A stretch of 64,000 bases of DNA, taken from positions 2,001,236 through 2,065,235 of the forward strand of contig JAQFWX010000005.1 in the NCBI GenBank assembly GCA_027605045.1. The letters run 5' to 3'. The notes beneath the pieces are model-generated. The model did not search any database. It had not been told where the DNA came from and was given only the letters and a program-made list of their open reading frames with translations. The stretch is from Phallus indusiatus (Eukaryota > Basidiomycota > Agaricomycetes > Phallales > Phallaceae). A program made the translations under genes and the position numbers. Below are positions 764 through 48,276 of the stretch, piece by piece. The stretch's first letter is position 1, and each line of letters begins with the position of its first letter.

Positions 764-1560
764 TAGATGCACCCTCGTTGCCGACATCTAATAGATTCGA
801 CATTTTGTACATAGATCGCGAACAAAATGACATTCCTGATTCGAATCTGACTACCCCTGCTGCATCCTCTGATAAACCCAAAGAATCGCCTCCACCTGCT
901 ACACGCTCTGTTTCCATTCCATGTATGCTGTCGCCTTCTCAACGTCGCGCATTGCCAAAGGAATACCGACTCGCAGCTACTGCTGGCACGCAGAAGCTAG
1001 AGATCCCGGTGGAACTACAGAGTGTTGACACTGGAGCCCTGCTGCACAGCAAGGCCATGCTGGACACTGGAGCTAGCGGTATGTTCCTCGACCGCGACTT
1101 TGTCGAGAAGCATCGGCTTCCCTCCGTACGTCTTGCTAAACCAATTCCCGTGTTTAATGTCGATGGTACGCCCAACCATGCTGGCTCTATCACCCACGTC
1201 GTCGACCTGGTTGTTCGATTTCGGGATCACTCCGAACGCACCTTGTTCGCCGTTACCTCGCTCAAGTATCCCGTCCTATTTGGGCTGCCGTGGTTCAAGG
1301 CTCACAATCCCGTCATAGACTACACAACTGGTCAAGTAGAGTTCATGCGCTGCAGCCCCAGTTGTCGGTCTTGTGCCCCACGCTGGCCAGCGGGTAAGCT
1401 CTCTAAGCGTGCGTTCCAACAGATCCGACGCGCGCCCCTACCAAAGCTCGACAACACTGAGGCCGATGATCCTGACATACCAGACCTGGTCGACGTCGAG
1501 TCTGAGATTGAAGAAGGTGATCGACTGTTCGCGATATCAATGCTACCCGACGAGCCCGAC
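760..1560 (+). CDS. Retropepsin (protease) segment of the polyprotein
   Basis: This frame carries the aspartic-protease signature LDTGASGMF near base 1060, with a second hydrophobic flap region ending in PVLFGLPWF around 1270-1300. This is the usual layout of a Ty3-type retropepsin that processes Gag-Pol. There is no ATG at the frame opening, so it would be expressed only as a fusion. After the segment reading DRLFAISMLP the meaningful coding moves to another frame at about 1545-1565. The reading continues open to 1761 but is out of frame there. A one-base indel relative to an intact family member explains this best. Confidence 0.8.
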
Positions 1561-4500
1561 ACGCACCGCCACCGAGACCATCTCCCAGCGACTGGCTCAG
1601 GCCCACGCCAACAACGCAGACACACCAGCTCCCAAGGGCTTTCGGGATATCGTGCCAAAGATGTTCCACGACTTTGCCGACATTTTCTCGAAGGAGTCAT
1701 TCGATTCGTTGCCGCAGTCGAAGAAGTGGGATCACCCGATAGAACTTGTGCCAGGTTCTGAGCCCAAGTCTTGCAAGATCTACCCGCTGTCACCTAACGA
1801 ACAGGCCGAGTTAGATGCGTTTCTGGAAGAGAACCTTGCTTCTGGACGAATCCGGCCCTCCAAGTCGCCCATGGCGTCCCCGGTGTTCTTCATTAAGAAG
1901 AAAGATGGCTCTCTTCGCCTTATTCAGGACTATCGTGCGCTGAATGCCATGACGATCAAGAATCGTTACCCGCTGCCTCTGATCTCGGAACTCATCAACA
2001 AACTGCAAGGTGCCCGGTACTTTACCAAGCTGGACGTGCGCTGGGGTTACAACAACGTACGGATAAAGGAAGGAGATGAGTGGAAGGCTGCTTTCCGCAC
2101 CAATCGTGGCCTCTTCGAGCCCTTGGTGATGTTCTTTGGTCTCACTAACAGTCCTGCCACCTTCCAGACGATGATGAACGAGATCTTTGAAGACATGATC
2201 TCAGAAGGTGTCGTTGCCGTCTATATCGACGACATTCTCATTTACACTCGGGATCGGGAACAGCACGACAGGGTGACACGACGCGTTCTCGAACGTCTCC
2301 GTGAGCACAAGCTGTATCTCAAGGCAGAGAAGTGCGAGTTCTGTCGGACTAAGATCGAGTACTTGGGTGTTGTCATTTCCGAGAACACCGTAGAGATGGA
2401 TCCCGCGAAAGTCTCGGGTGTCAGAGACTGGCCTGTCCCGAAGAATGTCACTGAGGTTCAGTCCTTCTTGGGCTTCGCCAACTTCTACCGTCGGTTTATC
2501 AAGGATTTCGCGCGTATTGCCAATCCCATGTTCGGGCTAACCAAGAAAGATACGCCCTTCGTCTGGTCCGACACTTGTCAGCATGCTTTCGATACTCTGA
2601 AGTCGTCGATCACCTCTGCCCCCATTCTTCTCATTCCCAACCCCACTAATCCTTACCGGGTTGAAGCAGACAGCTCCGACTTTGCAACAGGCGCGGTTCT
2701 CTCACAGTTGTCGAACGAGGACGGTAAATGGCACCCAGTTGCGTTCTTCTCGAAGGCCCTTAGCCCTGTCGAACGCAACTACGAGATTCACGACAAGGAG
2801 ATGCTCGCTATCATACGATCTTTGGAGGAATGGCGACACTTTCTCGAAGGCGCATCTCACCCTATCGACATACGGACTGATCACAAGAATCTCGAGTATT
2901 TCATGTCCGCGCGTAACCTCAATCGTCGTCAAGCTAGATGGTCAGTATATCTCTCACGATTCGACTTCACCCTACAGCATATACCGGGTAAGTCGATGGG
3001 TAAACCTGATGGCCTATCCCGTCGCCCAGATCATGGCTCGGGAAAGGACGATAATCGTGGCGTCACCCTAATCCGACCCGAAATGTTTGCAATCAATGCT
3101 CTGCAAACATTCCGTCTTAAAGGGGAGGAGGAGGACCTGCTACGCCAGATTCGCAAGGCCAATCGAGAAGGCAAGGTCGAAGATAGCGTTTCCAAAGCCG
3201 TTGCAACACTTCGTGCACTGGGTGGTCGTTCAGCTCACTCGTCGGAATGGTTTGAAGACCAGGACCTCCTCTATTATCGCGGCAAGGTTTACGTGCCAAA
3301 CGTCGACGAGCTGCGTCGGAAAATCCTTTCCAGGCACCACGACACCAAGCTCGGTGGTCACCCGGGTCGTTTCAAGACTCTCGAGCTCGTTTTGCGCACC
3401 TTCTGGTGGCCAGGTGTCTCTAGGTATGTCCAACGCTATGTAGAGGCCTGCGACATGTGTCTACGTACGAAACCGTCTCGTCATGCTCCCTATGGCCTTC
3501 TCCGACCCACAGAAGTGCCAAGTCGACCCTGGGAACACATCTCAGTCGACTTCATCGTGGAGCTGCCAGAATCCAATGGTTTCGACGCGATCCTCTCTGT
3601 CGTCGACTCTCTCACCAAGCGGGTTCATTTCGTGCCGACATTTACGACACTTGACGCGACAGGTCTAGCCCGTCTGTACCTTCAACACGTCTGGAAGCTC
3701 CATGGTCTCCCCATGAAGGTGATCTCTGACAGAGGCCCCCAGTTCGCGTCCCGCTTCACACAGGAGCTTTCTAGGCTCCTGGGCATACGGCTTGCACCCT
3801 CTACGGCGTATCATCCTCAAACCGATGGTCAGACAGAACGTGTCAACGCAGAAGTCGAGCAGTATCTTCGACTTTTCACCTCGGAGCGACAGGACGACTG
3901 GGACCAGCTGCTGCCCATGGCTGAGTTCGCATACAACAACCATGTACATTCAGCCACGCGTTCAACACCCTTTGAACTCGACACTGGACGACATCCTCGT
4001 ATGGGTTTCGAACCGCTGGTTGCCGACTCCAAGATCGAGTCTGTCAACGAGTTCAAGACGCGTATGGAGTCGACAATAGAGGAAGCCAAGGCCGCCATAG
4101 CCAGGTCGAAAGACGAGATGGCCAAGTACTACGATCGGAAACACATCCCGGCACCTGAATACAAGGTTGGCGACAAGGTATACCTTGATTCGAGCGATAT
4201 CCGTACCACCAGGCCCTCCGCCAAGTTATCGCATCGGTACTTGGGGCCTTTTCCGATAGTCAGCAAGGTCGGATCACACGCATATAAGCTGCGTTTACCA
4301 CTGTCGATGTCAAGGCTTCATCCAGTGTTCCACGTCGGGAAGTTACGCCCAAAGGTTGAAGATACAATCCCGGGTCGTCGCGTCAAGGCTCCCCCACCTC
4401 CGGAGGTCAGAGATGACGGTGAGCACTACGTCGTGGAACGGATTTTGGACAGTCGGGTGTTCCGGAGACGACTCGAATATAAGGTGCGTTGGGAAGGCTA

Positions 4501-4696
4501 TGGTCCCGAGCATGATCAATGGGAACCCGAGTCGAATATTGCAGCCCCAGATCTCATTAGGCAGTTCCACCGTGAGCACCCGAGTGCGCCGCGCTCGATA
4601 AATGGTCTCCTCTTCCATCGTCGCCCTCGGTTCGATTTCTCCAAGTTGCAAGCATCACTAGTCGAAGCTACAGGCGTCGGGACGCCGCCTCGTTGA
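1373..4696 (+). CDS. pol: Pol: reverse transcriptase, RNase H, integrase, chromodomain
   Basis: The open frame begins at 1373 but genuine Pol sequence starts at about 1560. RT carries KLDVRWGYNNVRI and the catalytic YIDD (Asp near residues 285-286). RNase H follows (EADSSDFATGAVL, then IHDKEMLAI). The integrase has an HHCC zinc-binding region (about residues 650-695) and the catalytic triad D726, D786 and E822, which gives the canonical D-35-E spacing. A chromodomain occupies about residues 1019-1058 (YVVERILDSRV ... WEGYGPEHDQWEP), the feature that places the element among chromoviruses and probably directs integration to modified chromatin. All catalytic residues are present. The stop (4694-4696) lies 12 bp before the LTR. 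Confidence 0.95.
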   Translation: MPHAGQRVSSLSVRSNRSDARPYQSSTTLRPMILTYQTWSTSSLRLKKVIDCSRYQCYPTSPTRTATETISQRLAQAHANNADTPAPKGFRDIVPKMFHDFADIFSKESFDSLPQSKKWDHPIELVPGSEPKSCKIYPLSPNEQAELDAFLEENLASGRIRPSKSPMASPVFFIKKKDGSLRLIQDYRALNAMTIKNRYPLPLISELINKLQGARYFTKLDVRWGYNNVRIKEGDEWKAAFRTNRGLFEPLVMFFGLTNSPATFQTMMNEIFEDMISEGVVAVYIDDILIYTRDREQHDRVTRRVLERLREHKLYLKAEKCEFCRTKIEYLGVVISENTVEMDPAKVSGVRDWPVPKNVTEVQSFLGFANFYRRFIKDFARIANPMFGLTKKDTPFVWSDTCQHAFDTLKSSITSAPILLIPNPTNPYRVEADSSDFATGAVLSQLSNEDGKWHPVAFFSKALSPVERNYEIHDKEMLAIIRSLEEWRHFLEGASHPIDIRTDHKNLEYFMSARNLNRRQARWSVYLSRFDFTLQHIPGKSMGKPDGLSRRPDHGSGKDDNRGVTLIRPEMFAINALQTFRLKGEEEDLLRQIRKANREGKVEDSVSKAVATLRALGGRSAHSSEWFEDQDLLYYRGKVYVPNVDELRRKILSRHHDTKLGGHPGRFKTLELVLRTFWWPGVSRYVQRYVEACDMCLRTKPSRHAPYGLLRPTEVPSRPWEHISVDFIVELPESNGFDAILSVVDSLTKRVHFVPTFTTLDATGLARLYLQHVWKLHGLPMKVISDRGPQFASRFTQELSRLLGIRLAPSTAYHPQTDGQTERVNAEVEQYLRLFTSERQDDWDQLLPMAEFAYNNHVHSATRSTPFELDTGRHPRMGFEPLVADSKIESVNEFKTRMESTIEEAKAAIARSKDEMAKYYDRKHIPAPEYKVGDKVYLDSSDIRTTRPSAKLSHRYLGPFPIVSKVGSHAYKLRLPLSMSRLHPVFHVGKLRPKVEDTIPGRRVKAPPPPEVRDDGEHYVVERILDSRVFRRRLEYKVRWEGYGPEHDQWEPESNIAAPDLIRQFHREHPSAPRSINGLLFHRRPRFDFSKLQASLVEATGVGTPPR

Positions 4697-4708
4697 AGGG
4701 GGGGGTGG
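4695..4708 (+). promoter_or_regulatory. Polypurine tract
   Basis: A G-rich purine run (GAAGGGGGGGGTGG, with one T) abuts the 3' LTR, where plus-strand DNA synthesis is primed in LTR retroelements. It overlaps the last two bases of the pol stop codon. Confidence 0.75.
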
Positions 4709-5106
4709 TGTCAGGGTACGCTACCGCGTCCCCTCATTTTTCCTTATTTATTATCATCGGTATATATTCCCCTATACTTTATTTATATTTCCCATATATT
4801 ATTTCCATCCTCCGTTTGCTCCCCCTGTCTCTATTCTACTTTCTCTACTTGCGCGCGTCGCGCGCTCGTACCGGCGTGACGCCGTAGGCGTCACGTCGCT
4901 TATGTTCGGTTCGGGCGTCTGGCACTTAGCTGTGTCAGGGCCGCACGCCGCGCTATCGTTTTTCATGTATATAGTCGCCGTCCCTAGAGTGAGGGTCCCT
5001 AAGCTTGTTCTCTTAGGATCCCCTCCCTCTAGGTGAGTAGTTAGTTCTCCCCAATATATTTCTCTTAGGATCCCCTCCCTCTAGTGTGAGCTGAGTAGCC
5101 CTAACA
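4709..5106 (+). repeat. 3' LTR of the Ty3/gypsy element (subfamily A)
   Basis: 398 bp, beginning TGTCAGGG and ending CCCTAACA, the TG...CA boundaries of an LTR. Three further copies of the same family lie in the window (5604-6000 minus, 8618-9009 plus, 9121-9520 plus). This copy groups with 9121-9520 by shared variants in the middle (for example the TATTTATATTTCCCATATATTA stretch, split here across shorter shared words, and TTCGGTTCGGGCGTCTGG). The internal repeats GGATCCCCTCCCTCTAG occur twice near the 3' end. Confidence 0.95.
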
Positions 5107-7141: not shown

Positions 7142-8249
7142 GAAGGGAAGAATAGTACTCATCGATCAAGATCGCGATCTCTTCTTTTTGACAGAAGCCA
7201 AGGGTACTTTAAGAACTCGATGGATCCATCGACAGATACCTGATCAGTAGGAAGAATAAGAGGATGGTGGTATGGTTCAAGAAAGAGGCAGCGTGGGAAG
7301 TGCCAGGTGTTGATTATGGCAAGGCTGTGTTATGAGTCAGTTCCTTCTTTTCCTGTCGATCCCTCTTTTGTGTTTCTTTTGTTCTTTGTTCTTGATTTTC
7401 CCATCATCGTTTCACCTGTCGATATGAATCTCTTCTTTTGTTGTAATTGTATCTCCCTTCTTTCTCTCGCGATTCTCCTATCCTCTCATTTCTCTTTTTG
7501 GTCTTATTATTTCTTTTGTTTGTTATTCTGGTGAAGGATGAGTGATCGTCTCACCAAAAGCTATGTACTCTGAAAGGCATAAATACTGCATGTAAATACT
7601 TGTAACAGCAGCAATTCTACCGGACGAGTTGTCTCACAGTTTAAGTCAAGTTCAGATCAAGTCAAGTTTAGCTCAAGTCAAGTTTCGCCTCTAGTCTATT
7701 TCTACGCTCATATCTATATCTTTGGATTAACTCTGAGTGAGGTCTCGGAGTATAAACTAGCGATTTTATTTCAGTTTATCACTTTCACTAACTCGCACAG
7801 GAATTCAATCATCATTGATTGCAGGTCCTCTCTTTAGTCGCATTTCAAGCTCATTGCCAACTCCCTGTTCATTCCCTCACTTGCACATCTGTATACGACA
7901 TCTCTTAGTCGTTGTATTTGTTGTTTGTGTTTTGTCTGTGTTGGTTTCGCATCAGCGCATACATCCCCTCCTTCTCATCATCCACTCACACCCACTTTCC
8001 CTTATTCACCGAAATCAGCACCAGGACCTGCTCCACGGTAGACTACCGACCTCATAAACAAATATCTCATTGTAGTCCGATCATTTATAGCCGGTACACA
8101 ATAGCTTTTCACATCGGATCGTTACAACGTGTTTCGTACTAGACCGGACTTTGCCGGGATAGGCTCGGAACACTGTGCTTGACAATGATGAAGACTCCTC
8201 ACTCGCTACAAGCAAGGAACCACTCTATGACCATACGGCTAGAGTGATC
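7142..8249. other. Intergenic, AT-rich, no gene supported
   Basis: No convincing coding sequence. Around 7640-7690 there is a short imprecise tandem repeat based on CAAGTCAAGTT. Pyrimidine-rich stretches (7330-7530 and 7860-8000) create short spurious frames. Confidence 0.5.
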
Positions 8250-8617
8250 TCTCATGCTCCGACATGAGACAGAAATGCATCGAAACCTATTGAGGGTTTC
8301 TGGCCAGTTAATGGCCAATTGGCCCACTTGTAACGTTTCGTTACTTTTTATAGTGTACCGCGTACGGTACACAAGTTTTATCACGCTGTAGTTTCACACC
8401 ACGAATAACAGACCAAGGGTGCTGTATTTTTTATGGTGTAAAACAAAGTGCGCGTGCTGAATCAGCACGCGCGTAGCTACTACTAATGTACAGTTATTAC
8501 ATAATGGCTCGCCGCGTCACGGCGAGCCAGAGGCGTTAAGCGCCTCTATTATTAGAAGTAATAATAGTAATTACTGCAGAGGGCGAAGCCCTCTGCATAT
8601 GCCTAAGTGGCATATAC
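8250..8617. repeat. Chain of abutting inverted repeats, left part
   Basis: Successive palindromes lie end to end: 8250-8269 (7-bp stem), 8282-8300, 8301-8317, 8331-8343, 8353-8372 (GTGTACCG stem), 8450-8472 (11-bp stem, GCGCGTGCTGA), 8473-8480 (GTAGCTAC), 8506-8528 (9-bp stem), 8529-8547, 8547-8566, 8566-8575 (AGTAATTACT), 8576-8596 (GCAGAGGGC stem) and 8597-8615. Nearly every base from 8450 to 8615 belongs to a hairpin whose edge touches the next. The stems differ in sequence, so this is not a tandem repeat of one hairpin. An LTR insertion at 8618 splits the chain. Confidence 0.85.
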
Positions 8618-9009
8618 TGTCAGGGTACGCTACCGCGTCCCCTCATTTTTCCTTATTTATTATCATCGGTATATGTTCATTTCCATTTCATTTACATTTC
8701 CCGTACATTAAATCCACCTTCCGTTTGCTCCCTCCGTCTCTATTTCACATTCTCTACTCGCGCGTTGCTCATACCCGGCGTGATGCCCGTGACATCACGT
8801 CGCTTAGGCTCGGCTTGGGCGCCTGGCACTTAGCTGTGTCAGGGCCGCACGCCGCGTCGTCGTTTTATGTATATAGTAGCTGTACCTAGAGTGAGGGTCC
8901 CTAAGCTTGTTCTCTTAGGATCCCCTCCCTCTAGGTGAGTAGTTAGTTTCTCCCTCAATATATTTACTTAGGATCCCCTCCCTCTAGTGTGAGCTGAGTA
9001 GCCCTAACA
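8618..9009 (+). repeat. Solo LTR, Ty3/gypsy family (subfamily B)
   Basis: 392 bp, TGTCAGGG ... CCCTAACA, flanked by a perfect 5-bp duplication TATAC (8613-8617 and 9010-9014). It is very similar to the reverse copy at 5604-6000. It sits inside the hairpin chain. Confidence 0.95.
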
Positions 9010-9120
9010 TATACTCAATCCACCGCATGCGGTGGATCCGTTACACCACTGCCTAGTCGACAGCGAATGCCAGGGGATGATCATGTCCCCACATTTCTCT
9101 CTTGCCACTGGAGCAAGAAC
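9010..9120. repeat. Chain of inverted repeats, right part
   Basis: It continues the hairpin chain beyond the LTR: a perfect 20-bp palindrome ATCCACCGCATGCGGTGGAT at 9018-9037, then a GGGGA/TCCCC hairpin at 9073-9090, then TCTTGC ... GCAAGA at 9100-9118. It ends at the next LTR. Confidence 0.75.
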
Positions 9121-9520
9121 TGTCAGGGCACGCTACCGTGTCCCCTCATTTTTCCTTATTTATTATCATCGGTATATATTCCCTTCTATTTTATTTATAT
9201 TTCCCATATATTATTTCCACCCTCCGTTTACTTCTCCTGTCTCTATTCCTCTTTCTCTACTTGCGCGCGTCGCGCGCTCATACCCGGCATGACGCCGTAG
9301 GCATCACGTTGCTTATGTTCGGTTCGGGCGTCTGGCACTTAGCTGTGCCAGGGCCGCACGCCGCGCTATTGTTTTTCATGTATATAGTCACTGTCCCTAG
9401 AGTGAGGGTCCCTAAGCTTGTTCTTTTAGGATCCCCTCCCTCTAGGTGAGTAGTTAGTATTTTCCCAATATATATACCTTAGGATCCCCTCCCTCTAGTG
9501 TGAGCTGAGTAGCCCTAACA
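9121..9520 (+). repeat. Solo LTR, Ty3/gypsy family (subfamily A), no target duplication
   Basis: 400 bp, TGTCAGGG ... CCCTAACA, close to the 3' LTR at 4709-5106. The flanks are AGAAC on the left and AACTC on the right, so the 5-bp duplication seen at the other solo LTRs is missing. This suggests recombination between LTRs of two separate insertions, with loss of the DNA between them. Confidence 0.92.
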
Positions 9521-29852: not shown

Positions 29853-30833
29853 TCAAAAACTTCCTCGGCGCATTCGGGTCCTTTTGTCGTTAGCTTGAGT
29901 CGAGCCAAGCCGAAGCAGGAATTCAATCCCATTTCCCGAGCTGGATAACGATGAAAGCCCTTTGTACACAATCCTGTCCCTCAGTAGATCCACTCTGCGA
30001 ATCGAGCTCATCTCCTCGTTGAAGGTGAGGTGGCTATCCCCTTTAGCCAGTCGAGAACACCTCACCCAATGAGCGTTCTTTCTCACGTGTGGTTCCTCAA
30101 TAGCATTCCATTCAGCGGGTGTTACGGGTTGATGCAGTGCTGCATATAAGGCAAATAAGACAGTTTCTATGGTGATGCAACTTGGTGGTCGGACTTCAAT
30201 TGGGATTTCCCATGCGAAATCATTCGAGACTATGCGCATGCTGTGGACAGGAGGATCGGTCGCAGGCTGTGACAGGAGAGATTGTCCTAGTGACTTTACA
30301 GGAGAGGAATGCACATCGGAGCAGCGGATTTGCGCTTGTTTAGGTAACTGCGAAAGAAGCCATACGAGTGATTGCGATTGCGCTTTAAGGACATCGTGTA
30401 GTCGAATACTAGGGGATTCTATAGTGTTGTGGTGATCACGATGAGTTGGTTGTGTAGGCCGAGACGATGACGAGGAAAACGTACGAGTGTCCCTTTCTCT
30501 ATATCTTTGTATGGGATCTCTAGAACGTGATGCGCCAGATCGAGGAGGAAAGGGGTGGTGCAGAGGAGGAAGGGGGTATAAAGGTGGTGGTGGCGGCGGG
30601 GGCAGCATATAGTATAACGGGTAGGGATAATGGTAAGAAGGATAAAAAGGAGGCGGCTGATGCAAATGATGAATATGATAGGGTGAATGTTGTCTCCTGT
30701 GAGAGCTTGATGTGGACCCGGATGATGTTTCGTTAGCTGGAGAAAGTGGTTGTGAATACTGGGGTTGAGAGTGAGGTTGGGGCTGAGGTGGCAGCCTCGC
30801 AGGGCGCTGTCCGGGGCGTCGTGGCGTTTCCAT
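29853..30833 (-). CDS. DUF6699-type protein with long Pro/Tyr-rich N-terminus
   Basis: A single exon of 326 aa from an ATG at 30833. The first ~130 residues are low complexity (Gln/Ser, then His/Tyr/Pro with a run of seven prolines). The C-terminal ~180 residues follow the DUF6699 pattern: NDFAWEIPIEV, ITIETVLFALYAALHQPV, TPAEWNAIEE, RCSRLAKG, IRRVDLL and a final F-x-L-x-L strand. It resembles the product of 10814-11571 most closely around the DEW/AEW and RRIDSL/RRVDLL motifs. Function unknown. It is intronless, unlike the other two family members in the window. Confidence 0.8.
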   Translation of the reverse strand: METPRRPGQRPARLPPQPQPHSQPQYSQPLSPANETSSGSTSSSHRRQHSPYHIHHLHQPPPFYPSYHYPYPLYYMLPPPPPPPLYPLPPLHHPFPPRSGASRSRDPIQRYRERDTRTFSSSSSRPTQPTHRDHHNTIESPSIRLHDVLKAQSQSLVWLLSQLPKQAQIRCSDVHSSPVKSLGQSLLSQPATDPPVHSMRIVSNDFAWEIPIEVRPPSCITIETVLFALYAALHQPVTPAEWNAIEEPHVRKNAHWVRCSRLAKGDSHLTFNEEMSSIRRVDLLRDRIVYKGLSSLSSSGNGIEFLLRLGSTQANDKRTRMRRGSF

Positions 30834-33800
30834 ATGACTTGTTAATTACAACACTACTTCTCCTTCTTCAGATGTATAGCTACAGATTTTCTCCAATCCA
30901 CCGCTCAAGAATACCTTTCCCGGCCCGGCAAGGAGTCGTGGGTTGTGGCGAGAGTGTGGATCACGCTCTGCGTGTGAGGGCGAATGTGGGCGGAGGATAT
31001 GAAAGTCGATAGAGGGTATAGGGAAGGTGGCGTACCACAAGTTGAGAGCGCAGGGTCTTGTATTTATATGAGCCCTGAAGCACAATGCGTGTCAGTTCAT
31101 CCGGTAAATCAGACCAAAATCTGCAGTTTTGAGAGAGGAGCGGACGTATCAGTTTCTTCTTCTTTTTATAATTGTTTATTGTCTTGTCATTTCATATGAT
31201 ATTATAGGGGTAATTGATTGCCTCACCAGTTTAAGCGATAGGTCAGTGCCATCTGCCGAGTTGCGCTATACTGTGATCAGTGATCCTAAATAATCGCCTT
31301 GTGTGCTTGTGTGGGGGACGAAATACGCAGCGGTGCCCATCGCATAGCATTTGTCATAATCGAGATAGATAATCTGTGGAAAACCAAGCTTACAGTTAGT
31401 CTCCAAAATTCTCAGGGACGCGGTGAAAAGGTAATGAAACAAAGTGCCCAACTATACCTACCTAAAGAGAATTATATTAACGTACAGCCAGTTGCTCTCC
31501 GTATCCAGATTGGTGGTGGTACGATTTGTGTGCTACGTCGGTGTATGCCCGATAACGTCGGGGAGGCGTGGGTCCATGTCAGCTAAGCTGAACAGTGCTA
31601 TAACGCTACTTCTTTTGAGAAGCTATGACTCAATTGCAGAGGAAAGCTCAAAACTGTTGATAGATGAACTGGCAAACTGGCAAGTATTGGCTTGATTTGA
31701 TTCTGGAAGAACGAGCTGGACGCATTGGATGGGATCCATATTTTCCTTGTAATAGCCAGTTGATTGGTAAAAATATGAACCCCGCGCTGATTTGTCTTTC
31801 CACAGCCGTTCAGGGACGAATCAATATCTATACCAAAATAGGTTTTGTCAATTGCACAGCCTTTTCGAATCCACAAGCTGTTGAAGATCAATTGTACACA
31901 CAGTCAGCTAGTTTCATATCATATAACCTGCAGCGACAAATGATAAATCGTCCACAATATCGGGAAAGGACACAATAAAGCTCACAATATGAAATCACCC
32001 CGAGTTGAAACGGACCTCCGAAGTCACAAAAAGTCTATCGCGTACCAGACATTAGAATGATACGAACCAACATGACGTCGTAACGCACGTGAAGCATGAC
32101 TATGTGGGGTACAGCCTCGTTTCCCGAAATATGTATTCGAGCACCATGCACAGTCAGATGAATTTGTGCAATAATCATGGACCAGTGTGTCCAGGGAAGC
32201 GACCTCCTGTCATTGAAGTGTGGAACGGATGAGAAATATGTTCCGAGGGTAAGTGTTTCATCAATTTCCTGTTAACATTGCCTCATTTCTCCTATTGCAA
32301 AAGAAAAAGGCTTTTGGAGGACGGGCGATAGATGCGTTAGCAACAAGTTAGCAACGAACAAATTCATGGGCGCGTTTGTGATTACGTAATTGAAATTATG
32401 CAATGATGCATGTTTTGGCGCCTATTTTATCATCTTTTCACTGGCACGAACTTTCATCTTTTATATCGGTTTACAAACAAACTTTTATCCCATCTGGTGA
32501 TTTCTTTGATCCATCAGCTTACCTTCCAGAGATCCAGTGAAGCTGCTAATAATTTCGAGGAATTAGCCCGCGTTAGATAACATCATATATGACTACACGA
32601 CGCGAGTTCCACAGAGCTCAGTACCGGTTCGGATCGGGCTCGGATGAATTCAAAAAGTGTATATACACAAGGAATAATCAATTTTGCGTGGCTGTGAGTT
32701 TTACAGGGGAAAAAACAGTTCATGTTGGGACGAATGCACCTTTTAGAACATGAATGCAAAATGGCTATACACAACGGTTCACCTGCATCTGGTCGCAATG
32801 TTGATATTTAACCCGAAATGGTAGTCTTGCATAGCCTCCTTAAATGTATTGCAAGTCAGTTATTTTTCTTTTCTCGGACTTGGGGCTTGAAAACTGGATT
32901 TTTGGATACCACGGGCTGTGCGTCGGATAGCTTGCCATCCGGGTTTCTCAAAACCGATCCCGCACTTGTAATGACCATTTTGTTTTTCCGTAATTTTTTC
33001 ACGCTCAAACTTTGAAAAGCAGTGCCATTCGTGTTGATTTTAGAGGATTGCTACGCATCATTGCTCCTTATATCGCAGCTTCACTTATTCAATAACCATC
33101 CGTCTCAAAACGCCAAACACGTTTCTCGAGATCCAAGAGAATAAAACAATCCATTTTACCCGATTTTCAAATTCATTCAAAACGCGCCATGATATCGAAT
33201 CTTCCACGTGCAACAAAATCTGTATTTATTTCTCACCTTCAGGCTGTGTCAAAGCATACTCCGAATCCCACTGTGGTCTCGATACGAACTCTTTTCATTA
33301 CTTCTCAATCATTTTGTTCGCGAGTGCTCCTAATGCAATTCCGACTAGACACAGGATTTCCGATCCACTCCGAATAACGAATATTAGATCGGGTTCTCCA
33401 CTTATCACGCTCTCTTTCATCCCCTTTCTACCCAACCCAATCATCAATGCTAATTACGACTACATAACGTATTTAGATAAACCTAGTTGACCCTCTCAGC
33501 AGATACTCGTCTTCATTATAAAGCAAAGAGTCAAAACTTTTCCACAATTGAGGAACTTTCGCGCCTCGCTAAACTTTGGAAGGCTTATTTTGCTGACATT
33601 CATCCTCAATATCATTGGTTCAGCTATTCTCATCAATTAAGGAACGCTCTCAGTGCAACCATAGTCCTCAATACCTCAAATGAACCACCAATAATAACCC
33701 ATAATTTGAAGCGGTGCAAAGCCGCTTATGAGTTCAGTCACAAGCGCAGACAAGCGAACTAAATAACGGAGTCGCTTCATATCAATCTGGAGAAGCGACG

Positions 33801-40831: not shown

Positions 40832-41709
40832 ATGAATCCTAATACACCCCACACGCCTCGTATCAGGCCTATACCCCTACCTCCCTTGCCGTCTGCCCCA
40901 GAGAGACAGTGTAAGCCCAAATGCTTGCTCAATGATGGTCCATGGCTCAATCAAACGCTCACTAACGCTGGAAATCATCAGATATAGATGGCCAACTGAC
41001 TCCCCTTACACCGCACCCCAATATCCTCTTTCAAGCCCAACAACAAATACATGAGATTCTCAGACCAAAATCATCGACCGACATTACTACCGAAACAGAT
41101 CCGGAAAGCCCTAGTCTCAGCCTGAGCCCCAGCCACGGTGACGAGGGGCTCTCTCCGCTCTATTATGACTTCAAGGATCCGCCCTCGAAAATAATCCTCG
41201 GAAACACAGCATGCACAGCAGGAATATCTCTCAGACGTCTCAAATCCATACCAGCCACGGAAACATCCCTCAAACAATTACGCATCATTCTCCCAACAAC
41301 AACGCCAATCTCAGTTATCGTCTCTAACTCCCCTTTCGTCTCGATTTTGGATATCTTAGACGCCATACATTCAACACTACATGCTCCTATTAGCTCTTCA
41401 ATTGGAGATGACCTCGATCTTCCTAACACCGTTTATAACACCCTACCCTCGGGCGTCGACTTCCCAGAGACCAATCCTCCCGTGCTCCCCTCCTCTCTAA
41501 TTCAAGCTCCCGACATTCTGCATGTACCCCTCCGTGGAAACTCATATGATTATCACCCAACTGACCAGTCGACGTCCGAAACAGAGTCAAACTGTGGACG
41601 GAAAATCGATTACCTCAAGGGTCGTACCACATTTGCTGGTTTGACACGTTGCAACGTCGCGGAAGAGAAATTCGCACCAATAACGTGGAAGTTACATACT
41701 ACCACTTGA
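40832..41709 (+). CDS. DUF6699-type protein, two exons
   Basis: Exon 1 is 40832-40910, the intron 40911-40987 (GTAAGC ... ATATAG), and exon 2 40988-41709, giving 266 aa. The joined start reads through a TPLTPHPNILF motif into LYYDFKDPP, the typical opening of DUF6699 (His-Pro then Tyr-Asp before a Pro pair). FVSILDILDAIHSTL follows, then IDYLKGRTTFAGLT and a final W-x-L strand (ITWKLHTTT). An earlier AG in the intron (CATCAG) would cause a stop, so the ATATAG acceptor is preferred. This is the best match to the family consensus of the three in the window. Function unknown. Confidence 0.82.
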
Positions 41710-44134: not shown

Positions 44135-47100
44135 TCACTCGTCCCCATCCCAAGTATCAACGGATAATAAACCAGAAGATTTATAAAACCGCTGCTGGGA
44201 ATTTTTGGATTTTAACTGCGATGCCGGCGCAGTTGTTGATTCTTCAAGGGAACTCGCCGCCTTCGCTTTTCGAGTTTTCGGCGCTCTGGCTGTCGATTTC
44301 TTGTTTTTCAATATTTTCATATCACGTCCCAGATCAGCCAGAAGCTTAATTTCATCAATGGAACTCGTGGACTGTGCTTTCAGCCACTTTGCATCCGAAG
44401 CTCGGTGAATGAGGAAGTCTGGCGCCGTGTAGCCTGGAACGTCAATAGGACCCTCACGGTTCACCCACTCTGCCATAGGCGAACCGCATTTCCATAACGA
44501 TCCCCCATTAGTTTTTTCCAACACTGCCACGATGTCGAGACTTTCGCCAGGAGGAATAGGGTTCGGCTGACTAGGCGTAACACATGGCATGTCCACTTCT
44601 TTACGGAGAACCCTGTCCACATCAACAGCACTGAAGAAGGCAACGCTTTGGGGCAGATCGTCCATCCCAAGACGATATGCGAAGATCGACCGTGTCCAAA
44701 GATTGGCAATTTGCAGGGCTAATACAGCTCGATACTTGTCCTCGTCCTTAACCAGATAACGCAATTCATCGTGCACTGAAATGAGATATCGAGCTTGAAT
44801 GTCATACTCTTTGATAAGATGTTCCATAGACACAATGAGAAGATGAAGGTAGTCAACACCAGAGGATTGAACGGCCCAGTTGATACGTGATGGAAGATAG
44901 TCGGCGCCGAACTTCTCCGGAAGATACTGCTTTGAGAGCGCAAAGGTAACACCACAGTCTAGAACAGGTGTTTTAGGCTCATCGGAGATGGCTATTTGCT
45001 CGAGTTTGTTAAACACAAAACTCTCCGTTCCACCGTACCAGAATTTGTGACCGAAAAGATCGGGACGATGGGTGTTTCTACCTTTAGTCGAAGCGTAGAG
45101 CCGTTCCGCAAGGTCTTGAGCTTGTTCCGGTAACATCGATGCATTGCTCTGCAATAAGAGTAACATCATGCTTCATCCCGGCGCCATAAATTCGCGAATA
45201 ATTGAACACCTTGGCCTGATCACGTGTAATCCCAAGTATACTAGCGGTCTTCGAATGCAAATCAGTACCGGCCTTCTTCGTACCCTCCAGCGTCATCCAA
45301 CCAATAGCAGTCGCACCATGCAAACCAAACTGAGCGTCGCCCATGCAACTCGATATCCAAAGTTCTTCCGAATCGACATCAGCTCCGATGATGGCATATC
45401 CTTCTGGAGCGCGCACCATGGCTTTGAGCTCTGAACCAACCCTATTTTCCTTGGCATTCGAAGCTGTAAGCCAAGTTTTTTCAATTGCTCGTCGAGTTAC
45501 GGTACCCATTGTGATAACTTGAGGCAAAATCATACCCCACTTGCCACCACCACCTGGAGCGGCCAGAGATTGCAGCCCCTGTCGACCGTATTTGTCCCAC
45601 ACAACCATCTGCTTCATAATGCGGTCGCGTGCGCTGATCCAATAACTGCATTGGGCATTGACTTCTAGAGCTTCTCCAGCAATTGGTTCCGGGCTACTGA
45701 GAGTCCCGTCGGCAGCAAACTTGATAAAAGTCTTGCCAAGCGGACTGCCTACATTGGCATCTTCGCCGTCTTTATGGGGTAATTTAAAGAACGCAAATTG
45801 GCCTTCGTCTTCACTAGCTTCTCGGAGAGTCTGGTCATCAGCGTGTTTAAATGACAGTTCTTTCTGACGCGTCTTAAAAGTGCCGTCATTCAAAGCTTCT
45901 CGAGCCACTCTGAATGTCCATCCATGATCACGTGAGAAGACGAGCGGCCACCCTTGCCATTTCAGACGAAATAGGAGAGGAGCAACACGACTGCGCACTG
46001 AAATTTCGAGATTATCGGCGGATGTTCGTCTCGAAGCCTTGCCTAATTGCCAATACCAGCTGGGAACAAATTCCGCTCGTCCTCCCGCTTCGCCGAGAAT
46101 CTCGGTACTTCCGGGTACCACAGGTGTCCATTCCAAAAACTTCATCCAGGGCTCCCAATCTTTCCGTTTCGCGGATATGGGATCGTACATACGGAACATC
46201 TTCACAGCCAGTACTCTCATAGGTTCAACAGCTTCTTTGTCATTTTCTTCAGAAACAAGCTTGAGCCATAAGCCCATGCTTTCGCCTCTAGGCCGCGAGA
46301 GAACACCAGTCTTGTAATGTTTGAAAGCGTGCGTACGATCAAAAAGACTCTTGAGACGTGCTCTCTGCGGTGAGATAATGCGTTCAGAAAACGGAAGATT
46401 CGGGTCGTCCACGTAGGAGTGCCAGCCGTATTGGCGAGTATGCCAGACGGGTTGGTCATGAATTTGCAATCGCAAGAGGTAGGGTAGAATGTTATGTCTG
46501 ACGTAAGGATGCGAGACACCAAGGATCTTCAAATCGTTCATGAATTTGGGTATAAGCCGTGGCTTTTTACTGAAGCAATCGAAGACACGAGGTGATGGCA
46601 ACGCAGACTCGAGAGCTGCGAGCTCTTCTTCGTAATCACCTTGACCTTTGCCACTTCGAATCGTTTTTGGAGTCCAGTCAAGTTGCTGAAGCCAGACGTC
46701 TTCTTTCCACTTGTCCCCTGTAGCAAGGTGTCGAGCGCTCTCCGCCATACTCTTCAGAGCATTGGTGACTTTGACCTCCAGTGCTTGGTATTTTCCTTCA
46801 GCAGCTTCCAGGTACTTCTCCCAGTTTTCATCCACAGGAAGAAAACTGCTACCCATACTGCAAACACCCGCAAAACTGACCGGATTGGGACACTTCTCCA
46901 AAAACGCAGGAAGAATCTTGCGGAACACCTGATGCGTCACAGCGACATCTTTTGCGCAGTAGGTGAGATATGACGAGATGTCGGATAGAATAGATTCAGG
47001 AGATGCAGTCATGAAATCGTCGCGTATAGTCTTGTCAACTTCGATGCCACAATGTAATCGGGCAACCTCAGCAAGAGAGTTGACGGCCGTTAGCTCTTCC

Positions 47101-48276
47101 CACCGTTGACCATTGTGATCTCCTTCCCACGGGGCTTCTAATCCGACGTCCGCGATAGCTTGTAGTGAAGGTAGCGATTCAGATAAATCGGCCAGTTGTG
47201 CCTCCAGATCTAGCCTTCTTTTTGCGTTTTTTTCCCTTCAAGACTCTCTTTGAGTTCATTGATTAGTCCCAGCACCGAATCAACAGCCTCGTCCTTCATC
47301 GCCTTGCTGGTTTGCTTTTGTTTTCGGTATTTGCTCCATGCAGAACGCTGATGAGACGAAACTCCGTTAACCGCGACATGCAGCGCCATGGTATCCAGCC
47401 ACCTAGTACCAGTTCGTTGGATATGGTATTCTTCCAATGTCCTCGCACGATCATAAGCAACATTATGCCCGACTACAATACGCGATGTCGAAGGGTTCCC
47501 AAGCGGTATCAATTGTTCGATCTCTGTTGTTTCCTTCATAAGCCAGGGTGATATCCAGACATACCACGCGGTAGGCGAGGCAGCACAGGCCATAACAGCA
47601 TATGGACTTTCATTTGGTAATGTTTCTACATCGAAAACCAGCATTTCTTCATTAGGATAGTCGATTGATTCGTGCAAGCCATCATCTCCTAACCAGTACT
47701 TGGTCCACCCCGATTGAATCACCCAATCTTCTGGTGGCGGAGGCAGAGTCAGAGATGCCAGTTTTTTTGATTGTGAGAGATAGGGTTCGGCTACTTTCGA
47801 GCCTATAGCGTAGAAGTGGGAATCAAGATCATTTCCTTCCAAAGGTGGTAAGGTGAATGAGACGGGTGGGTGGGTAGATGACTGAGCTGGATCCAAGCTA
47901 TGTTTAGTGAGATGCTTTTTCGCGATTTGGACATAAACGTCTGGCGGCGCGGGAAATGTCGCATCTTTAAATACTTGCGAATGCAATTTGGGCGACAGGA
48001 GTTGGACACCCAGTTGGTTTCGTCGTACTGAAAAAAAGCTCCTGTCAGTATAAAAGTACGTATATTTATCGGATACAGACCTGTGTTTATCGTTTCCCGA
48101 TCATTTTGTTGCGGATTTGACTGTCCAGCTGCAGTGTCTGACCCTGAAGAAAGAGGAGCTGCTGGCAAAGGCTGAGCGGCCTTTTGCTTCAGAGATAATG
48201 AAGGATTACGCGTATTAGAATGGAAAAAGCGCAAAGAGCCCACTCTCCTAGAGTAATAGTTAATCCTAGTGTTCAT
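44135..48276 (-). CDS. MIP1: Mitochondrial DNA polymerase gamma catalytic subunit
   Basis: A family A DNA polymerase that replicates mitochondrial DNA. Exon 1 is 48276-48081, the intron 48080-48028, and exon 2 runs from 48027. The Arg/Ser-rich N-terminus (YYSRRVGSLRFFHS) suits a mitochondrial presequence. The 3'-5' exonuclease motifs are FDVETLP and GHNVAYDR, with YLTYCAKDVAVTHQVF as the third. The polymerase motifs are GADVDSEELWISS (A), KVFNYSRIYGAG (B) and VHDELRYLV (C). The total is about 1360 aa, normal for fungi. Two frame breaks interrupt it: one base short in a run of seven T/A at 47227-47233, and one base in excess near 45149-45164. All catalytic motifs survive, so assembly error is the simpler reading. 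Confidence 0.9.

Follow-up and report, generated by a model that had tools for sequence, protein, structure and literature searches.

A hairpin-rich solo LTR of Phallus indusiatus belongs to a Ty3/Gypsy element tiled with short hairpins in coding and untranslated sequence

A chain of different hairpins in the analyzed stretch of Phallus indusiatus DNA (the window, 64 kb) is the solo long terminal repeat (LTR) of a multicopy Ty3/Gypsy chromovirus-like element, and the hairpins of this LTR are one instance of a feature that extends over most of the element, coding and untranslated sequence alike. In the reading frames, the hairpin excess greatly surpasses the level set by protein and codon usage. 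The interpretation that we prefer, to which we assign an even chance, is that the full-length sense RNA has been selected for being folded as a whole.

Positions 8329–8617 and 9015–9045 form one 320-bp sequence with the ends TGTAACG...CGTTACA and with CCACT on both flanks. The initial annotation had stated that no LTR explains the chain. We identify it as the solo LTR of a family of Ty3/Gypsy chromovirus-like elements because it has TG...CA ends, is flanked by a 5-bp duplication (CCACT), and exists in further copies that include pairs placed around gag-pol. The features of the locus are the following.

8185–8328, plus strand: protease-coding scrap, left part; 90–94% identity to at least 39 other places
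8324–8328, no strand: target site duplication CCACT, left copy
8329–8617, minus strand: solo LTR, first 289 bp, with the TGTAACG end; 94–99% identity to at least 39 other copies
8613–8617, no strand: TATAC, left target site duplication flanking the nested LTR
8618–9009, no strand: nested LTR of another family (TGTCAGGG...CCCTAACA)
9010–9014, no strand: TATAC, right target site duplication flanking the nested LTR
9015–9045, minus strand: solo LTR remainder, ending CGTTACA, with a 20-bp palindrome at 9018–9037
9046–9119, plus strand: protease-coding scrap, right part; 93–97% identity to at least 39 other places

The element sense of the solo LTR is the minus strand of the window, as set by the gag-pol genes of the full-length copy designated C45. 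The LTR family comprises at least 40 copies in the 67-Mb genome, the solo LTR itself included; the copy counts are lower bounds, with 40 of 209 and 40 of 154 candidates scored (first 289 bases). Target duplications accompany other members as well, TTTGG at the C45 copy and TGAGG and GGCCT at two other apparently solo copies. The solo state at 8329–9045 presumably arose by recombination between two LTRs, which is the usual route.

Because its flanks match the protease region inside full-length elements (the left scrap in C45, and both scraps in a second full-length copy, C184), the solo LTR is inserted into protease-coding sequence from a Gypsy element of its own kind. For the left scrap, 40 of 231 candidates were scored, and two of the matches lie inside the full-length C45 and C184 copies; it translates by eye as ...GFWPVNGQLAH and contains hairpins at 8250–8269, 8282–8300, and 8301–8317. 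The right scrap (40 of 57 candidates scored) begins with the duplication CCACT at 9046–9050, translates by eye as ...VDS.CQGMIMSP, and contains hairpins at 9073–9090 and 9100–9118. The extent of 8250–9118 originally given for the chain therefore holds for the part within the LTR; the hairpins at 8250–8317 and 9073–9118 belong to the protease scrap and lie outside the LTR. Two LTRs had also been recognized in or beside the chain, and both are present: the one at 8618–9009 is nested between TATAC duplications, and the one at 9121–9520 adjoins the scrap. This third LTR is 81–100% identical, in four blocks, to the nested LTR. Its flanks, AGAAC and AACTC, do not match as a target duplication would, which may point to a rearrangement or compound insertion. 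Upstream of the protease scrap, at 7637–7684, a 16-bp unit (CAGTTTAAGTCAAGTT and variants) occurs as three tandem copies.

With the nested LTR removed, the 320-bp LTR contains 15 perfect hairpins (stem ≥5, loop ≤8; some overlap), namely the 11 given here, which carry no strand assignment, and four overlapping alternatives.

8330–8344: hairpin
8353–8372: hairpin
8429–8443: hairpin
8450–8472: hairpin with palindromic arms of 11 bp and a 1-nt center (a usable loop of 3 nt leaves 10 bp)
8486–8502: hairpin
8505–8529: hairpin, stem 10, loop 5
8529–8547: hairpin
8546–8567: hairpin, stem 9, loop 4
8575–8597: hairpin, stem 10, loop 3
8597–8615: hairpin
9018–9037: hairpin

Nine of the 15 make up a non-overlapping chain. 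The supposition of the initial annotation that hairpin density lies far above chance was borne out: the LTR has 64 stem bp (stems ≥6, non-overlapping), whereas 500 composition-keeping dinucleotide shuffles averaged 5.1 and peaked at 25. It is the strongest hairpin stretch of the window, the best 320-bp window elsewhere scoring 28. When an intact LTR copy was folded, z values of -12.4 for sense RNA, -10.8 for antisense RNA, and -10.1 for DNA were obtained, and none of 100 shuffles matched the folding in any of the three cases. No Rfam family reached its gathering score anywhere in the window. Searching the same genome for similar chains, as had been suggested, returned the further LTR copies (at least 39, at 94–99%) along with 93 places that have the 9-bp core GGCTCGCCG/CGGCGAGCC of the 8505–8529 hairpin around any 5-nt loop; a reversed control gave 0.

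The stems differ from one another, as had been noted, and are not one amplified repeat. A CRISPR array, a simple repeat, and a mobile element built of hairpins were each rejected, given the differing stems and a repeated unit that is the whole LTR. The owner of the chain is a Ty3/Gypsy element with gag-pol and not a separate element made of hairpins, and nothing was found in favor of a recombination or replication site. Structured RNA, also raised at the outset, is a serious option, in that the element owning the LTR is hairpin-rich in its coding regions as well.

LTR pairs on the same strand lie ∼8.9–9.3 kb apart, as at C45:1060576 and 1069849 and at C184:1764479 and 1773368. The interior of the C45 pair, which was examined in full for gag-pol, encodes on the opposite strand a gag with a CCHC knuckle, protease (PR), reverse transcriptase (RT), RNase H (RH), and integrase (IN), in the order PR-RT-RH-IN. 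The C45 integrase matched rve with 29.7 bits (below the cut-off of 32.6) and H2C2 well above the cut-off; the C terminus of the C184 integrase matched SH3_Tf2-1 with 50.6 bits and a chromodomain (PF00385) with 26.1 bits, barely passing the cut-off of 25.1. By eye, a polypurine tract (AAGGGGAGGA) immediately precedes the 3′ LTR in the element sense. The 63 nt after the 5′ LTR contain no TGG primer site, and self-complementarity to the LTR is at most 7 nt. Immediately behind the 5′ LTR (L023:3426–3443 and L094:1543–1562) is a hairpin, TCTTTTTTAACACC...GGCGTTA (TAACACC...GGCGTTA), with an A·C mismatch, that is kept in a sister family. The two LTRs of a pair are identical at 320 of 320 positions in C45 and at 318 of 320 in C184, and the structured form is thus the recent form.

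A search of the genome with the RT protein revealed copies with long open frames and gave at least 84 matches (82 of 542 candidates scored), 49 with 91–100% and 35 with 73–81% protein identity. More distant RT relatives were 50–63% identical, and the named ones among the best 120 of 664, ∼50–60% identical and for the most part basidiomycete, come from Trametes, Pleurotus, Pisolithus, Ceratobasidium, and others; 35 stretches in viral contigs and 37 in prokaryote genome contigs matched a pattern used to seek RT relatives, and none of either set was confirmed. Downstream (3′) of the integrase, the C184 copy has a 599-aa open frame (L024:462–2261, minus strand) that is split in the C45 copy and whose RNA is hairpin-rich; none of 7998 scored candidates matched it at E ≤ 0.001, and its Pfam matches were all below the cut-off. 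The sister family (C142) shares 72–75% DNA identity with the first family over pol and has an apparent LTR of its own, ∼264 bp long with identical ends and recognized by eye from a single LTR. At L071:76–490, the 5′ LTR of a first-family copy lies, by eye, inside LTR-like sequence of the sister family; therefore, both families were together in the genome.

Perfect hairpins with stems of up to 12 bp and loops mostly of 3–8 nt occur along the element. Those with stems ≥7 number 81 in 9.8 kb of C45 (shuffle mean 5.0, maximum 10) and 77 in 9.4 kb of C184 (mean 4.0, maximum 7), and the gag-protease blocks of six copies contain 9–13 each (shuffle means of 0.6–1.3). When C45 was profiled in 31 steps of 320 bp, 10–56 stem bp were found per step, compared to shuffle means of 2.3–5.5; nine of the 31 steps, of which five lie in the 5′ part, failed to surpass the highest of 60 shuffles. 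The top windows in an LTR-masked scan of the fetched loci lie inside the element, with 80 and 75 (both L024) and 69 stem bp (L021 and the overlapping L006). The mean over 5420 locus windows, from loci that contain much element interior, was 15.5 stem bp versus 4.6 in the 64-kb window overall. The pol region of another chromovirus in the window (1301–4740) has 0–7 stem bp in 11 steps, and ten pieces of other Gypsy elements yielded a single hairpin with stem ≥7 in 10 kb (shuffle mean 5.7). For the remaining 60 kb of the window, 39 such hairpins versus a mean of 27.8 and a maximum of 36 represent a slight excess.

Permutation of synonymous codons, which leaves protein and codon usage unchanged, was carried out 100 times for each family frame. 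The stem bp (stems ≥6) observed versus the permuted mean were 130 versus 22 for integrase, 153 versus 23 for RT-RNase H, 162 versus 20 for gag-protease, 53 versus 5 and 43 versus 11 for 5′ frames of 206 and 348 aa, and 159 versus 22 and 56 versus 11 for 3′ frames of 373 and 154 aa. In all seven frames, the observed value lay above every one of the 100 permutations. With stems ≥7, six of the seven exceeded all permutations and the 206-aa frame equaled the maximum (17). For frames elsewhere in the window (60 permutations each), the corresponding values were 50 versus 42 for the chromovirus pol and 12 versus 14, 12 versus 24, 0 versus 10, and 18 versus 10 for four others.

Folding energies gave a similar result. 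Four family frames were 41.3, 43.9, 41.6, and 33.0% beyond 20 synonymous shuffles, with sense z values of -13.2, -17.7, -16.7, and -11.8 and antisense z values of -8.8, -15.5, -13.8, and -14.1; the antisense z was the larger for the 599-aa frame. Against synonymous shuffles, the excess was 11.0% (z -3.3) for the sister gag frame, 16.5% (z -9.0) for the sister pol frame, 18.0% (z -6.3) for the pol frame of a third family, and -5.7% (z +2.3) for the chromovirus pol part. We also determined the MFED, the excess over dinucleotide shuffles, in 350-nt windows with 10 shuffles per window. The sense MFED of C45 was 36.6% (11 windows), 44.8% (8 windows), and 41.1% (8 windows) in its three segments, and all 27 windows were positive, the lowest at 17.8%. 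The sister family had values of 20.8 and 18.0% (seven windows each), and the third relative had 17.6% (four windows). Controls were at -1.5% for the window chromovirus (nine windows), 1.3% for a pol-gamma region (11 windows), and 2.0% in 10 windows from five of the ten pieces of other Gypsy elements; no excess was seen in the eleven other Gypsy pieces of the same genome that were tested. Of a 39.9% excess in the first family, perfect hairpins supply 18.6 points, roughly half, and other pairing supplies the remainder.

Comparisons of pairs and hairpin centers between families indicate that a minority of the hairpins are old and that most have been replaced with foldedness maintained or even increased. 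Of 269 first-family pairs, 147 were unchanged at sister columns, 101 showed a one-sided change, and 21 showed a two-sided change (9 of the latter again Watson–Crick); the 147 are close to the 144 expected without protection from 73% identity squared. The third relative retained 68 of 131 pairs unchanged, with 56 one-side and 7 both-side changes (3 Watson–Crick). In the reverse direction, the first family kept 101 of 165 sister pairs, and of 16 double changes 10 were Watson–Crick, which is somewhat above expectation. Hairpin centers coincided between the first family and its sister at 7 of 26 versus 2.0 by circular shift (maximum of 8 in 2000), and the sister and third relative had 14 of 15 centers in common.

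Among copies, stems did not evolve more slowly by the frequency of minor-allele cells (0.0428 in stems versus 0.0415) or of variable columns (0.244 versus 0.197), nor did shared and single variants differ in their placement in stems (P = 0.50); third-position diversity was nominally 0.0737 in stems versus 0.0843 elsewhere. In the LTR block, the 176 stem columns contain 19 shared variants and 21 singletons, and the 144 other columns contain 29 and 13; its stems may thus have fewer shared variants than the singletons would lead one to expect. Shared pair variants may restore or keep Watson–Crick pairing more often than singletons do, but the pairs in this count were selected for being formed in at least one copy. 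Double compensatory changes are rare, at 9 of 315 column pairs. These conservation tests lose power because many copies are likely to be dead insertions that drift by transitions.

The strand comparison gave weak evidence. Sense MFED exceeded antisense in 38 of 45 windows of three families (P = 1.3e-6). When the perfect hairpins of the 27 first-family windows were kept and the rest was shuffled, 3.9 points of the gap remained (P = 0.03); hairpins and composition by themselves supply another part of it, as windows with only the hairpins kept also favored sense (18 of 27, P = 0.026). Absolute energies of sense and antisense in 240-nt windows did not differ significantly (P = 0.06, 0.57, and 0.18; sister 0.43). 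The antisense RNA is strongly structured too, with an MFED of 29–37%.

Selection on the sense RNA is argued for because the excess sits largely on synonymous choice, because sense MFED exceeds antisense partly beyond the hairpin and composition control, and because half of the excess lies outside perfect hairpins while stems are no hot spots of change. Against it stand the undiminished diversity of stems, the rarity of compensatory pairs, a G·U count at stem ends that is at or mildly above expectation, with G·U rarer in predicted pairs than in shuffles, the strongly structured antisense RNA, the lack of a significant strand difference in 240-nt windows, and the nine steps of C45 that did not surpass their shuffles. 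The sense RNA would act as messenger and as genome, and its folding as a whole would be favored by selection and built up by mostly synonymous changes while most individual hairpins turn over. The likeliest benefit would be a compact RNA with perfect helices too short for Dicer-type enzymes; such RNA may be poorly accessible to small RNAs, nucleases, and RNA sensors and may be easily compacted into virus-like particles. More tentatively, and at somewhat less than an even chance, a basidiomycete LTR lineage may have recoded nearly its entire RNA, with the protein held constant, into short hairpins, more folded than the RNA viruses compared below, that shield it from silencing or surveillance by the host.

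The main rival, which we regard as rather unlikely, is a mutational origin in which RT or host repair switches template and perfects near-palindromes (quasipalindrome correction), a benefit-free process filtered by the protein. It would account for hairpins in coding and non-coding parts alike, for a structured antisense RNA, and for stems that are Watson–Crick with a mild G·U surplus at most (sense G·U at stem ends, seen/expected: C45 18/17.9, C184 20/16.6, relatives 14/9.5; A·C: 37/26.5, 28/23.8, and 12/15.6; one-mismatch stems, A/C 11 and G/T 2 in one copy and 8 and 6 in the other). Likewise in its favor, codon-phase preference is absent (third positions pair with positions 3, 2, and 1 in 27, 25, and 32 of 84 cases). 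However, changes relative to the sister show no clustering on one arm (arm-difference sum of 48, null 47.2), a template-switching test weakened because third positions are near saturation between families (identity 0.458). At codon positions 1 and 3, stems also change at a pace similar to that of other sites, and at position 2 they change less. Identity to the sister is 0.451 in stems versus 0.462 elsewhere for third positions and 0.949 versus 0.886 for second positions, so stems are no mutational hot spot. By eye, no clear inverted-copy event was found in the top 40 of 117 difference clusters (≥3 differences between copies, repeats removed). The half of the excess that lies outside perfect hairpins and the lack of any excess in other Gypsy pieces of the same genome further oppose this origin.

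Selection might instead act on DNA, as cruciforms in chromatin or single-stranded cDNA, during integration, recombination, or the particle DNA stage. Watson–Crick stems with little G·U, the z of -10.1 for LTR DNA, and the weakness of the strand difference fit this proposal, but the higher sense MFED in 38 of 45 windows, partly beyond control, and the pairing outside perfect hairpins do not, and we consider it quite improbable. We rank still lower, as very improbable, the notion that the hairpins are specific protein-binding sites such as Gag packaging signals, for which sequence or loop motifs would matter. Ty1 and Ty3 are established to package and dimerize their genomic RNA, and the tiling does run through RNA that must be packaged. 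No loop motif is common, however: the 28 tetraloop hairpins have 24 different loop sequences, with at most three of one kind, and only 7 of 26 centers match between families, even if chance alone would give 2.0. An artefact of chance or composition has negligible probability, since the LTR exceeds 500 of 500 dinucleotide shuffles, seven frames exceed 100 of 100 synonymous shuffles at stems ≥6 (the 206-aa frame tying the maximum at ≥7), and controls from the same genome lack the signal.

An RNA folded as a whole has a precedent in GORS (genome-scale ordered RNA structure), which is described for RNA viruses of animals and plants and whose function is entangled with persistence and immunity. The GORS threshold is a folding energy excess of 3% over dinucleotide shuffles (PMC3950689), and MFED is 7–9% for HCV, 15% for SARS-CoV-2, and 23.4% for a deltacoronavirus (PMC7642675). 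The last value is the highest recorded there for vertebrate RNA viruses, earlier analyses included (PMC7642675). Our comparison with these values has equal fragment size, although the shuffling program and step differ, and whole-genome means are the fair basis because one SARS-CoV-2 stretch peaks above 50% (PMC7642675). GORS viruses resemble the fungal element in having hundreds of consecutive short stem-loops through coding RNA together with an energy excess, short helices, and poorly conserved pairings with overall foldedness kept (PMC7642675, PMC3950689); sarbecoviruses likewise show hairpin turnover with persisting foldedness (PMC7642675). The fungal element has the GORS traits of excess in 27 of 27 windows and survival of that excess in protein- and codon-keeping shuffles. 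It differs in being a fungal LTR retrotransposon with a computed MFED of 37–45% and in that its paired sites are not less diverse, whereas those of SARS-CoV-2 are reported to be.

Compared to the Ty3/Gypsy chromoviruses of basidiomycetes, the element shares TG...CA LTRs, 5-bp duplications, gag with CCHC, PR, RT, RNase H, and an integrase with H2C2, SH3_Tf2-1, and chromodomain; it would be set apart by the hairpin tiling, the lack of a TGG-type primer site immediately behind the LTR, and the extra 599-aa frame 3′ of the integrase. Its post-LTR hairpin is reminiscent of fungal GalEa elements, which lack a classical primer site and have, as their Conserved Hairpin Site, a hairpin with one conserved mismatch immediately behind the 5′ LTR, but they are Copia rather than Gypsy and have a single hairpin of other sequence (PMC5445492). 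Ty1 genomic RNA is likewise an LTR retrotransposon RNA with mapped folded regions, although it is not known to show a genome-wide excess of this kind (PMC9503155). Searches of an open-access library listed no report of a hairpin-rich LTR retrotransposon or of a whole one with GORS-like folding, which is weak evidence of absence. The phenomenon is known from RNA viruses; what appears to be new is that a fungal LTR retrotransposon shows it, and to such an extent.

If the preferred reading is true, genome-scale ordered RNA structure has evolved in a genomic parasite confined to the cell. Gypsy families with a strong, a moderate (sister), and zero effect in one genome provide a natural comparison for the purpose of whole-RNA folding. 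Synonymous sites of a transposon can bear a strong signal besides codon usage, and a genomic hairpin cluster may be a small glimpse of a folded mobile element.

Other coding sequences were recognized in the window. The pol of the other chromovirus (RT, RNase H, integrase, SH3_Tf2-1, and chromodomain), which has no hairpin excess, extends over 1340–4696, and two DUF6699 frames, one per strand, are situated at 29853–30845 and 40966–41709. A mitochondrial DNA polymerase gamma-like gene lies in pieces at 44135–48100; among the best 120 of its 203 relatives, the named ones are ∼50–60% identical and mostly from basidiomycetes.
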